In this document: one piece after another, positions 2,498 to 62,959 of the stretch
How positions within the stretch are numbered: the first letter of the stretch is position 1
Layout: every line of letters begins with the position of its first letter
NCBI GenBank assembly: GCA_030427505.1
Contig: JAUICH010000004.1
Coordinates: 186,001 to 250,000 of the forward strand
DNA length: 64,000 bases
Direction: 5' to 3'
DNA from: Verrucomicrobiia bacterium
Lineage (GTDB): Bacteria; Verrucomicrobiota; Verrucomicrobiia; Verrucomicrobiales; DEV007
The notes under the pieces: model-generated
Databases searched by the model: none
The model's input: only the letters and a program-made list of their open reading frames with translations
Told to the model about the DNA's origin: nothing
Translations under genes and position numbers: made by a program

Positions 2498-3199
2498 ATG
2501 AACGAACGGGACCCAGAGTCTCACGCTGTCACTCAGCCGCCTCCGGAACCAGCCGAGACGTGGGGGCGCCGGTTCCGGCGATTCATGCTGTGGTGGGTGT
2601 ATGCGCTGTGCGGCATGCTCATGGCGGTTTTGATACAAGGGATGCTCGACCCGTTTCTACCCGTGGAGCTAAGAGCAGGCAGCGGCTTTGCGGCACAGGC
2701 GGGGAACGACGGACTGTCCGAAACGGATGAGGCCCGTCTGACCGCGGCGCGCCTGGTGCTGACGGACGTGGGCAAGGTGGCACTGGGTTTTCTCCTGGGT
2801 CTCTGGCTGATGTTCTCCCGGAAGCCTTTGATCCCCGAACTCGCCCGGCTGAGCCGCTGGCTGCAGCGCCTGGGCGGAGCGGCCCTCTGTCTGGGCTACG
2901 GTGTGTGGCTGGGAGCGGCTGGCTACATCCTGTTCTCGCCGGGTCACGGCCTGCCTTTCGACCTGAGAACCGCCGAGGCGCTGGCGGAAAAAGAGGCAGC
3001 GGGTCACGTGGCTCTCTGGAGACTCTTCCCCGTCCTGGCGGGAGCCTGGCTGGCGGCGCTTCACGACATGCCCTGGCTGGGCCGCGCGAAAAACCGCCTC
3101 CCGAAGCGTCCGCTAAAAGAACAGTTCCGGCGCGCCGCGAAGACGCTGGACATGATGTTCGGCCCGGTGCGGCGGCCCGGTGACAAGGAAGGGCGTTAG
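2498..3199 (+). CDS. Hypothetical inner-membrane protein
   Basis: 233 residues with three or four predicted membrane segments (FMLWWVYALCGMLMAVLI near residue 30, VALGFLLGLWLMF near 97, LCLGYGVWLGAAGYILF near 130 and LFPVLAGAWLAAL near 175) and a basic cytosolic-looking tail. I recognise no family. It follows the SHD1-like membrane gene on the same strand, so the two may act together. Its TAG stop at 3197-3199 lies inside the 10-bp target duplication of the adjacent mobile element, so the insertion left the reading frame intact. Confidence 0.7.
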   Translation: MNERDPESHAVTQPPPEPAETWGRRFRRFMLWWVYALCGMLMAVLIQGMLDPFLPVELRAGSGFAAQAGNDGLSETDEARLTAARLVLTDVGKVALGFLLGLWLMFSRKPLIPELARLSRWLQRLGGAALCLGYGVWLGAAGYILFSPGHGLPFDLRTAEALAEKEAAGHVALWRLFPVLAGAWLAALHDMPWLGRAKNRLPKRPLKEQFRRAAKTLDMMFGPVRRPGDKEGR

Positions 3200-3202
3200 C
3201 CT

Positions 3203-3740
3203 GAATGGCACTCGGTTAAGCGCGGCGACCGGTCAAGTCGAGCCCTTTGACGGCGGCGACTGGCACTCACAGATCGCCGATGAAATCGCTTAACCGGGGT
3301 CTCAGGGCCGGAGGGCCAAGGGCCCGGCGCATACCAGCCTGGGGCGCGAGCCCCAGGAAAACGGGTCCCCATGAATATCGAGGGCCGTAGGTCCGGCGCA
3401 TCCCCCCGGGGATGGAGGCGGAGTCACGGCGCGCCCGCATGCGCCGGGCCTTGACTTCGCTTTGCTCGCCCCCTGGGCTGCCCTGCCGGGCAGTCTACCT
3501 GCGCTTCGCTTCGGTTCAGCCCTCGAAATTTGCCAATCCGCCTAACCTGGGCCTTTGGCCCAGGCTGGTATGCGGCGCGCCGTTGGCGCTCATCACCGGC
3601 GGAGTACGATCAGCCAGGTCCGTCGCGCGAAACTTTGGGGCGCACATCCGGCGAGAAGGCCACGCAATACCTGTCCGGAAATAGCGTCGCAATTGGTTCC
3701 CGTAAAAGAGCCGGTCACCACACTTATCCGAGTGCCATTC
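3203..3740 (+). mobile_element. Non-coding transposed element, copy A (10-bp TSD)
   Basis: This 538-bp element begins with GAATGGCACTCGGTTAAGCG and ends with the imperfect reverse complement (CTTATCCGAGTGCCATTC). It is flanked on both sides by the exact 10-bp direct repeat GCGTTAGCCT (3193-3202 and 3741-3750), a clear insertion footprint. It contains no convincing gene. Inside are nested short palindromes such as CCTGGGGCGCGAGCCCCAGG and CCTGGGCCTTTGGCCCAGG. A second copy lies at 53093-53566 in reverse orientation; copy A carries about 60 extra bases near 3450-3515. It looks like a non-autonomous element moved by a transposase encoded elsewhere. The 10-bp duplication would fit an IS4-superfamily enzyme, but that is inference. 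Confidence 0.85.
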
Positions 3741-3745
3741 GCGTT

Positions 3746-3795
3746 AGCCTGCTTTTCTCACCGGCTTTCGTGGCGAGACGCCGCGAGGCCTGCCC
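3746..3795 (+). repeat. Half copy of the AGCCTGC..TTTCTCACC repeat
   Basis: Just beyond the element, 3746-3795 reads AGCCTGCTTTTCTCACC followed by a GCGAGACGCCGCGAGG tract. It matches the reverse complement of the hairpin repeat at 25798-25882 with a few substitutions. Only one arm is present. Copy A therefore inserted next to, or partly into, an older repeat. From 3796 to 3980 I see nothing recognisable. Confidence 0.55.
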
Positions 3796-3980
3796 TGACA
3801 GGGCACGCGAAGACTCTCTCGCGGAGTTGCATGAGAACCCACTGCTCAAGAGAGAATGGAGCGGAACGCAGTCAGGGCACACCGCGGCAGATTACTGGTG
3901 AGCCTTGCCAGCCGAATAATGGTCCGCGCCGGGCCGTCCGCCAATCTGCTCACACACCCTAGCATTTCGCCTGGCCCGGC

Positions 3981-25757: not shown

Positions 25758-25797
25758 ATCTCCATACGAGCCTATTTTGACCATCCCCAAAGGCTCC

Positions 25798-25882
25798 AGC
25801 CTGCATTTCTCACCAGTTCTCTGCGGCGACTTGCCAAGGCCTCGCGTCGTCTCGCGACGAGAACGGGTGAGAAATGCAGGCT
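25798..25882. repeat. 85-bp inverted repeat
   Basis: Perfect 17-base arms, AGCCTGCATTTCTCACC (25798-25814) and its reverse complement (25866-25882), enclose a 51-base core that is itself partly palindromic (TCGTCTCGCGACGA). A one-armed relative is at 3746-3795. It lies in the gap upstream of hflK and has no T-run, so a mobile or REP-like repeat is more likely than a terminator. Confidence 0.7.
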
Positions 25883-26002
25883 TGACCAGAGTCACCGGTC
25901 CTTTGGCACAGTTTCCCGAGCAATCGGAAGATTCTACTATCTTACAAAATGCTCCCGCTTTTGTAGTTGTGGGGCTCTCATGCCGTCCTTAGAGTCGTCC
26001 GC

Positions 26003-52465: not shown

Positions 52466-53089
52466 GTGTCACGCTATTCCTCCAGCCGGAAAACGGCGCC
52501 CAAGGTGCGGGATGGGCAGGTTCAGAAGAAGAACCGGCACGCTCCGACGCGCCTCAATAGCCTATCGGTCGGCATCGCTAAGACCAGAGGCGGGCGGCGG
52601 CACGTCATCACCAAGGAGGACATCTGGAAATTTGTCCGGCTCTTGCCTGACTGGAAGCGGTTGTCCACGGATCTGGATTTCATTTACTTGAGTTCCATCA
52701 CCGGCGACGAAGATGGCGCGGATGGGTGGTATGTGTATCCCACCCGGCCCATGATCGTCATCAATGCCTGGGACGCCGATCTCACTCTGTTCGCGGACCC
52801 GGATTTCTTTCGGCGGCACGAAAAGCTCTTCGAGCGGCTCGGGGCAGAGGTCCGTGAATTGGAGTATGGGTACGATTGCGTGTTCGACGAAGACTCAGCC
52901 CGAGCCTACCAATTGCTACACATTTTCCTGCACGAGCTCGGACATCACCACTACCTAATCACGGGCGGAAGAGGAAAGATCGCGGGTAGCGAAAAATACG
53001 CGGAAACCTACGCCCTGAAAATGGAGCGGAAAATCTGGCAGCGCTACTGCCAGGCTTTCCATTTCCATCCTGAGAACCTGGCCGCCTAA
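52466..53089 (+). CDS. HEXXH putative zinc metallopeptidase
   Basis: 207 residues. The start is set at GTG 52466 because AAGGAG lies six bases upstream, a near-perfect ribosome-binding site; the frame runs on upstream but its residues look unstructured. The C-terminal half has HIFLHELGHHHYLITGG (HEXXH, about residues 154-170) and a downstream YAETYALKMER whose Glu could be the third ligand, the gluzincin-like pattern. The N-terminus is basic and probably disordered. I recognise no exact family and no substrate. The stop TAA lies inside the 10-bp target duplication of the next element. Confidence 0.72.
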   Translation: MSRYSSSRKTAPKVRDGQVQKKNRHAPTRLNSLSVGIAKTRGGRRHVITKEDIWKFVRLLPDWKRLSTDLDFIYLSSITGDEDGADGWYVYPTRPMIVINAWDADLTLFADPDFFRRHEKLFERLGAEVRELEYGYDCVFDEDSARAYQLLHIFLHELGHHHYLITGGRGKIAGSEKYAETYALKMERKIWQRYCQAFHFHPENLAA

Positions 53090-53092
53090 AGC

Positions 53093-53566
53093 GAATGGCA
53101 CTCGGATAAGCGGGATGACCGGCTCTGTTATGGGATCCGATTGCGACGCAATTTCCGGACAGGTATCGCGCGGCCTTCTCGCCGGAGGTGCGCTCCAAAG
53201 TTTCGCGCGCCGGGCCTGGCTGATCGTCCTCGCGGGGCATGAGCGCCAACGGCGCGCCGCATACCAGCCTGGGCCGAAGGCCCAGGTTAGGCGGATTGAC
53301 AAATTTCGAGGGCTGAAGGCCCAGCGCATGCGGGCGCGCCGTGACTCCGCCGCCATCCCCAGGGGGATGCGCCTGACCTACGGCCCTTGATTTTCATGGG
53401 GAACCGTTTTCCTGGGGCTCGCGCCCCAGGCTGGTATGCGCCGGGCCGTTGGCCCTCCGGCCCTGAGACCCCAGTCAAGCGGATTTCACCGGGGATCTGT
53501 CAGTGCCAGTCGCCGCCGTTGAAGGGCTCGACTTGACCGGTCACCCCGCTTAACCGAGTGCCATTC
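53093..53566 (-). mobile_element. Non-coding transposed element, copy B (inverted, 10-bp TSD)
   Basis: Reverse-complement copy of the element at 3203-3740, 474 bp. Its inverted ends are GAATGGCACTCGGATAAGCG and CGCTTAACCGAGTGCCATTC. It is flanked by the exact direct repeat CGCCTAAAGC at 53083-53092 and 53567-53576. Compared with copy A it lacks about 60 bases in the middle and differs by scattered substitutions. No transposase frame is present. The two copies, 50 kb apart in inverted orientation, could also support homologous inversion of the segment between them. Confidence 0.87.
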
Positions 53567-53605
53567 CGCCTAAAGCACCGGCTTCCGGGCTTTGCTTTTG
53601 ACTCT

Positions 53606-62338: not shown

Positions 62339-62959
62339 AGTCTTAGTCGGTTGGATGTTAGGTTGATGGTTTGATGGTCAGGTCAGTGCTTCTTCCCGCC
62401 CGGCCGGTTTCCGGTCATGGCCCAGCGGGCCGGGTGAAAGCAGTCGAAGCGTTGAGACCCAAAACAGCATCGGGCAGACCAATCCCCCAGCCCCATGTCC
62501 AAAGCGCCCGCGCAATCCATGCACATCGTTGCGCACGGAATCTGCTCTGAAACTCAAGGTATGCATCCCGCCCCAGAGGCCTCTCTCATCACCACCGACC
62601 CACCGCTGCCATGGTAAGTTGGGCGGGGCCTCTATCGGAACCCGCCAGTCCGGCTCGGACAGGCGATGTTTCCTCACCTCTACCCACATGTCTCAACCGG
62701 GCCGCGGACATTGAATGCCCGGTCAAGCGACCGGGTTCGGGGATGGAGGACGTTCATTGGCGGACCTTCAGCCCGCAATTTCCATCGGTCGAATTCCCAG
62801 GGATTCATCCCTGGGCTATGCGCTCTCGGGCCTTCAGCCCTTGGGCATTAGCCGGGCCTGACGGCTCGGATGCACGAGGATTTTCTAGAATGCCCCCGCA
62901 CGCCATTCAATCCCACACCCACCCAGAAGCTTCCCAAGGAGGCGACGCCTCTTTGGACT

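Follow-up and report, generated by a model that had tools for sequence, protein, structure and literature searches.

A MITE with IS4-type ends that carries an Acido-Lenti-1 doublet in a Verrucomicrobiia genome, and a candidate link of this repeat family to Y1 transposases

The Acido-Lenti-1 family (Rfam RF01687) was published as a candidate RNA of Acidobacteria and Lentisphaerae and was marked 'y' for RNA (PMC2864571); it has been listed as a bacterial small RNA since 2010. Among Y1 transposases, TnpA_Y1 subclass 1.2 comprises HUH proteins of about 148 aa with a Y---Q--HH motif, for which the typical terminal secondary structures of IS200 are generally missing and the entry for REPs reads 'no' (PMC6006769). 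From the Acidobacteria, Di Nocera et al. described tyrosine transposases with inverted repeats on either side, in some cases double palindromic ones (PMC3733652). In the open-access papers searched, we found neither a link between Acido-Lenti-1 and REP sequences nor a comparable IS4 MITE.

Here we describe a small mobile element of a Verrucomicrobiia bacterium, found in the window (that is, the whole stretch of 64,000 nucleotides that was analysed, from contig JAUICH010000004.1). Very probably, this element is a MITE that is moved in trans by an IS4-family transposase of the type encoded in two related genomes (G001 and G013), and that carries a captured Acido-Lenti-1 doublet, itself the REP-like repeat of a Y1 transposase.

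Structure and genomic copies of the element

The element (copy A) spans 538 bp, at positions 3203-3740 of the window, with near-perfect inverted ends and an exact 10-bp target duplication, GCGTTAGCCT; a sequence-only reading of the same DNA had placed it correctly, with the right length and duplication. That reading also described matching ends, which agree at 18 of 20 terminal bp (left, GAATGGCACTCGGTTAAGCG) but are not perfect (right, GAATGGCACTCGGATAAGTG), and the 30-bp arms are 87% complementary. Four end matches were observed in the window, compared with 0.02 expected by chance from shuffles. The element lacks conserved coding capacity, as had been proposed: the longest frames, of 41-100 aa, vary in place and sequence among copies. 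Folding of the whole element is much better than that of dinucleotide shuffles (z -5.4). The features of copy A are as follows.

3193-3202: left target-site duplication GCGTTAGCCT; 3197-3199 (TAG) is the stop codon of a 233-aa ORF at 2498-3199
3203-3232, plus strand: left terminal inverted repeat; first 18 bp identical to the ends of IS4-family ISs in other genera
3203-3305, plus strand: left unique arm of the MITE; no similarity to the compared ISs past the terminal ~20 bp
3312-3357, minus strand: Acido-Lenti-1 (RF01687) unit that forms the left half of the inverted REP doublet; it scores 40.6 bits (gathering threshold 37)
3380-3404: inner hairpin unit GAGGGCCGTAGGTCCGGCGCATC, common to free doublets elsewhere in the genome
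3451-3514: 64-bp hairpin segment, present only in long MITE variants (538-552 bp) and missing from the 474-484 bp variants
3546-3590, plus strand: second Acido-Lenti-1 unit, in the opposite orientation to 3312-3357; model R1 gives 44.9 bits and Rfam 32.3 bits, the latter below gathering
3592-3740, plus strand: right unique arm of the MITE
3711-3740, minus strand: right terminal inverted repeat, equal to the left end at 18 of 20 terminal bp
3741-3750: right target-site duplication GCGTTAGCCT, an exact repeat of the left one

The second copy that had been pointed out in the window (copy B) is a short variant in the opposite orientation, with a perfect 10-bp duplication of its own.

53083-53092: left duplication CGCCTAAAGC; the upstream frame stops at its TAA
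53093-53566, minus strand: copy B, short variant of 474 bp, inverted relative to copy A
53242-53286, minus strand: Acido-Lenti-1 unit, 45.7 bits with model R1
53411-53456, plus strand: Acido-Lenti-1 unit, 41.6 bits with Rfam
53567-53576: right duplication CGCCTAAAGC, the same 10 bp as on the left

A census of the source genome (a draft of 6.41 Mb in 56 contigs) returned 13 two-ended copies and about 13 fragments or halves, several of which are broken at contig ends. Seven of the 13 two-ended copies have a perfect 10-bp duplication, two have one with a single mismatch, and four have none. Most of these copies measure 474-552 bp and form two length classes set apart by the 64-bp hairpin segment, while a 257-bp copy without the core keeps both ends and a near-perfect duplication. 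The element is indeed a genuine non-autonomous mobile element, a MITE, and an IS with matching ends exists in related genomes; the further claim that it is larger than usual MITEs was overstated, as 474-552 bp lies in the usual range and the added length is that of the apparently captured repeat doublet. Identity of the copies to their consensus is 93-97%, and a divergence of 3-7% suggests that the family may no longer be active. In one copy without a duplication (L066), the right-hand 10-mer, GCTCTAACCC, also flanks an element at the end of another contig, which suggests recombination or misassembly.

No full copy of the element was found in 57 relatives, which yielded core-repeat matches and one 27-bp match only and provided no empty site for comparison with the occupied ones; plasmids gave no match, and viral contigs no exact end match. 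One solo end (C56:39419-39436) lies inside a long open frame without a partner end and was taken as a chance match. Two copies with GGATAAG at both ends (L067 and L079) were considered as end-to-end hybrids, which was rejected when the alignment gave each of them one left-type and one right-type arm.

A short dispersed palindromic element was also observed, at 3744-3902 and 25796-25884 of the window, with at least 34 end matches genome-wide. It is mostly ~150-180 bp long, with CCTGCATTTCTCACCAG ends and CTAG or TTAG flanks, and looks like another MITE family. Four copies of the present MITE (copy A, L068, L072, and L083) adjoin it, inserted exactly at its YTAR edge.

Target sites and IS4-family relatives

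All nine usable duplications fit the pattern N3-YTAR-N3, centred on YTAR, and YTAR occupies positions 4-7 in 29 of 35 element flanks, compared with 0.27% of window positions. In 7/9 cases, an open frame of 100 codons or more ends with the TAR of the site as its stop codon, against a background of 25% of the YTAR sites in the window (p = 0.0015, from a small sample). Since YTAR includes TAA or TAG whichever strand is read, many insertions fall on a stop codon and leave the gene intact.

Autonomous ISs of 1554-1599 bp with ends of this kind encode transposases of 489-498 aa. Those in related genomes are IS4-family ISs of ~1.55-1.6 kb, with GAATGGCRC...TAAG ends that have 18-20 bp in common with the MITE. 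The transposases of the relatives measure 489-494 aa, and in three relatives they score 76-92 bits with PF01609 (cut-off 23) and 203-216 bits with NF033592 (cut-off 115). The IS in G001 has a 10-bp duplication, TGGCTAGTTC, with YTAR at its centre, equal to that of the MITE in length and target; it answers the suggestion of the earlier reading that an IS with the same ends and 10-bp duplications be sought. The IS in G013, which is truncated by a contig end, equals the MITE over 19/19 terminal bp and adjoins GTTCTAAGAG. In a transposase tree, the enzymes with YTAR targets (G001, G013, and G029) cluster with that of G080, which has an 11-bp target of other sequence, and a clade with GGGTCAG targets is separate from this group; clade thus tracks target type.

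Derivation of the MITE arms by internal deletion of an IS was rejected, since they have no similarity to the ISs past the terminal ~20 bp, unlike the 92-bp MITEs described below. Another genus of the family (G011) holds ~40 end pairs and a related but different MITE family of 430-440 bp (L123 121-560), with GAATGGCGC ends, a 10-bp YTAR duplication (CTCCTAACGC), and no REP core; R1 had no match inside those related MITEs of G011, G060, and G008 that were examined. As a separate observation, GGGTCAG-type IS4 elements sit in GGGGTCAG(N)CCC-like palindromes (L118 101-997, with the IS at 1001; L139 1367; L134 1170), and in G062 an IS lies directly behind a Y1_Tnp-like gene; ISs of this type may target another RAYT-linked repeat.

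Acido-Lenti-1 units and Y1 transposase genes

One unit in each copy (3312-3357 on the minus strand and 53411-53456 on the plus strand) was matched by Rfam to Acido-Lenti-1 above gathering. A covariance model, R1, built from 14 other genomic copies, none of which is known to adjoin a Y1 gene, also detected the partner units at 3546-3590 and 53242-53286. At least 54 matches to the family above gathering were counted in the genome, 21 of the 54 inside MITEs; outside MITEs, the units often occur as inverted doublets 79-250 bp apart or as alternating arrays. The nested palindromes noted in the sequence-only reading are therefore real but not specific to the element, being Acido-Lenti-1/REP units that are also free in the genome. 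The MITE core, including its inner hairpins, aligns over its full length with free doublets at four loci (on C48, C6, C51, and C56), and this homology identifies the cargo of the MITE as a REPIN-like doublet. The free copies are more diverse than those in MITEs, from which we infer that the MITE captured the doublet and not the reverse. The tetranucleotide GT[AG]G is not conserved in the consensus of the 46-nt unit.

Two free-standing occurrences may be mentioned. At C52:8724-9605 (L091), Acido-Lenti-1 units alternate between plus and minus strands in an array with a period of ~325 bp, which probably arose by tandem amplification of a REP doublet. In the window, a single unit at 62796-62841 (42.9 bits) lies outside the MITEs, with a single hairpin upstream, as at many other loci.

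Four PF01797 (Y1_Tnp) genes are present in the genome, each with covariance-model matches nearby: three genes (L193, L194, and L195) have inverted double-hairpin repeats on both sides, and the fourth (L192) has four double-hairpin units of alternating orientation, all upstream. The encoded proteins, of 149-157 aa, are invariant at HUH residues H55/H57 and at Y117, Q121, H124, and H125 (alignment A2, with a -1 frame change bridged in two of its four rows), and thus have the Y---Q--HH motif and the length of TnpA_Y1 subclass 1.2. NCBIfam models placed them in the IS200/IS605 family at scores close to the cut-off; the score of the REP-associated model was far below its cut-off. Two of the genes, L195 1343-1860 (C51) and L194 1340-1857 (C40), have the -1 frame change at the same TGGCAAAAGG site (WQK|GYGWFSVSP) in proteins that are 67% identical, which could be due to programmed frameshifting or to an old mutation common to both.

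Scanning 84,980 genomes with an alignment of these Y1 genes gave 80 homologous loci, of which 39, from many phyla, have an R1 match within 500 bp (22 of them on both sides). Across the 80 loci, the zones up to 500 bp from the Y1 genes make up 12% of the sequence and hold 93 of the 106 R1 matches with E<=0.01; the corresponding p of about 4e-71 is a guide only, as hits were treated as independent though tandem units share loci, with no phylogenetic correction. Match density falls from 2.07 per kb at 0-150 bp to ~0.02 per kb past 1 kb, and the 77 matches within 300 bp are mostly oriented outward on both sides (32 downstream on the plus strand and 24 upstream on the minus strand). Positive loci comprise 9/9 from Planctomycetota, 3/3 from Acidobacteria, 10/13 from Verrucomicrobia, and 1/1 from Lentisphaerae; about half of the 80 loci, mostly from Bacteroidetes, have no match at E<=0.01, nor was any found at this threshold in 49 kb around IS4 and MITE loci, which is a weak contrast. 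Among 17 loci tested at Rfam thresholds, two are flanked on both sides (L217, Verrucomicrobiaceae; L248, Terriglobia) and two on one side (L219 and L239, Planctomycetota). Given that every one of the four Y1 genes here has units beside it, and that 39/80 homologues have them at 500 bp or less, Acido-Lenti-1 is best read as a REP-like repeat of TnpA_Y1 subclass 1.2.

Competing explanations and comparison with known systems

The genome itself contains one intact IS4 relative, a 1554-bp copy at C48:53866-55419 with a 498-codon frame free of stops. It is the sole IS4 relative found in the assembly, and its left end equals the 20-bp MITE end at 17/20 positions, so that it might be thought to mobilise the MITE by tolerating both end types and both target types. 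This is an unlikely explanation, and the copy is probably not the driver: its own duplication has 11 bp (GGGTCAGTCAA), in contrast to the 10-bp YTAR sites of the MITE, its transposase falls in the GGGTCAG clade, and it has cognate mini-MITEs. The latter, at C36:1438-1529 (L276), C52:10655-10746 (L279), C21:2893-2984 (L280), and C56:218116-218208 (L277), are 92-93 bp long and retain its subterminal sequence and 11-bp GGGTCAG/GGGTCGG-type targets, with a perfect 11-bp duplication in L277 (TTGACTGACCC) and a nearly perfect one in L276 (GGGTCGGTCAA). The 10-bp YTAR duplication, the 19-bp end identity, and the position of the genome's own IS in the other clade all argue for assigning the MITE to the G001/G013 type. 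No autonomous IS of this YTAR type was found in the draft genome, and the cognate copy would be either absent from the draft or collapsed in it.

Two further proposals start from the core. The whole element might be a REPIN-like unit moved by a Y1 (RAYT-like) transposase, with incidental outer inverted ends, which agrees with a core made of an inverted pair of REP-like units and with the adjoining units of the same kind at four Y1 genes. This reading is disfavoured and, in our judgement, very improbable, as the moved unit is bounded by IS4-type ends and 10-bp duplications outside the core, and the coreless 257-bp copy has both features, its duplication being near-perfect. Moreover, HUH/IS200-type transposition is not known to make a target duplication, whereas the MITE does. 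Alternatively, Acido-Lenti-1 could be a functional small RNA or RNA-level element (a terminator or regulator) that merely hitchhikes in the MITE and beside Y1 genes. Its hairpins, close to stop codons, could terminate transcription, and it was described as an RNA motif with conserved paired structure (PMC2864571). However, its matches cluster within 500 bp of Y1 genes and mostly point outward on both sides, and its abundance in a single genome, often in inverted doublets or tandem arrays, follows a copy and orientation pattern typical of REP/REPtron DNA; we therefore consider a role as RNA quite unlikely to explain the family.

The preferred reading, a trans-mobilised IS4-type MITE with a Y1-linked cargo, joins a mechanism deduced from comparison to what the sequences display: the ends and their duplications, the target motif, the number of copies, the homology between the core and free doublets, and the position of units beside Y1 genes. 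An IS4-family DDE transposase of the G001/G013 type would recognise the ~20-bp ends, GAATGGCACTCGG[T/A]TAAG, excise the MITE, and insert it at a symmetric N3-YTAR-N3 site with duplication of 10 bp, so that many insertions would fall on stop codons and genes would stay intact. An ancestral MITE would have taken up an inverted doublet of Acido-Lenti-1 hairpins, since carried as cargo, and these hairpins would be the REP-like repeat of an unrelated HUH (Y1, IS200/RAYT-like) transposase. Both the mobilisation of the MITE in trans and the action of the Y1 transposase on the units are thus putative. More generally, it is likely that Acido-Lenti-1 is the double-hairpin REP or end sequence of subclass 1.2 Y1 transposases in Planctomycetota, Verrucomicrobiota, Acidobacteriota, Lentisphaerota, and other phyla, and that it has gained here a second route of spread inside an IS4-type MITE, which would involve two transposases of unrelated mechanism.

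By itself, the MITE is ordinary biology, well documented in its 13 two-ended copies. The core is of greater interest: it assigns a concrete identity at the DNA level to an Rfam RNA family whose role is unknown, offers a candidate substrate for TnpA_Y1 subclass 1.2 that is open to binding and cleavage tests, and presents a REP-type repeat spreading as the cargo of a DDE transposon. A mobile DNA repeat is a better reading of the family than a small RNA, and pipelines that annotate its loci as small RNAs may be tagging repeats associated with transposons.

Compared with Acido-Lenti-1 RNA as curated in Rfam, the core units exceed the gathering threshold but here represent mobile DNA repeats in many copies, linked to a Y1 transposase. 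The MITE resembles IS4-family ISs (NF033592, PF01609) and their MITEs in its ~20-bp inverted ends and 10-11 bp duplications, and in having autonomous relatives with a DDE transposase; that family also includes MITEs of the deletion type, of which the 92-bp elements here are examples. It differs from IS4-derived MITEs in sharing just the terminal ~20 bp, with unrelated arms and a REP doublet in place of IS remnants. The TIRtrons, or TIRYT genes, of Acidobacteria likewise have flanking inverted repeats, and the TIR of Koribacter ORF1552 is repeated in its genome, although no link to Rfam Acido-Lenti-1 was drawn there and Rfam goes unmentioned (PMC3733652); these TIRs, likened by description, are probably in part Acido-Lenti-1-type repeats. 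Finally, like REPINs/BIMEs and REPtrons (PMC3116915, PMC6006769), the doublet is a dispersed inverted pair of hairpin repeats that adjoins Y1 genes, often on both sides, but its unit consists of two hairpins (46 nt) instead of one hairpin tagged with GT[AG]G, and it rides inside a DDE-type element with a target duplication.
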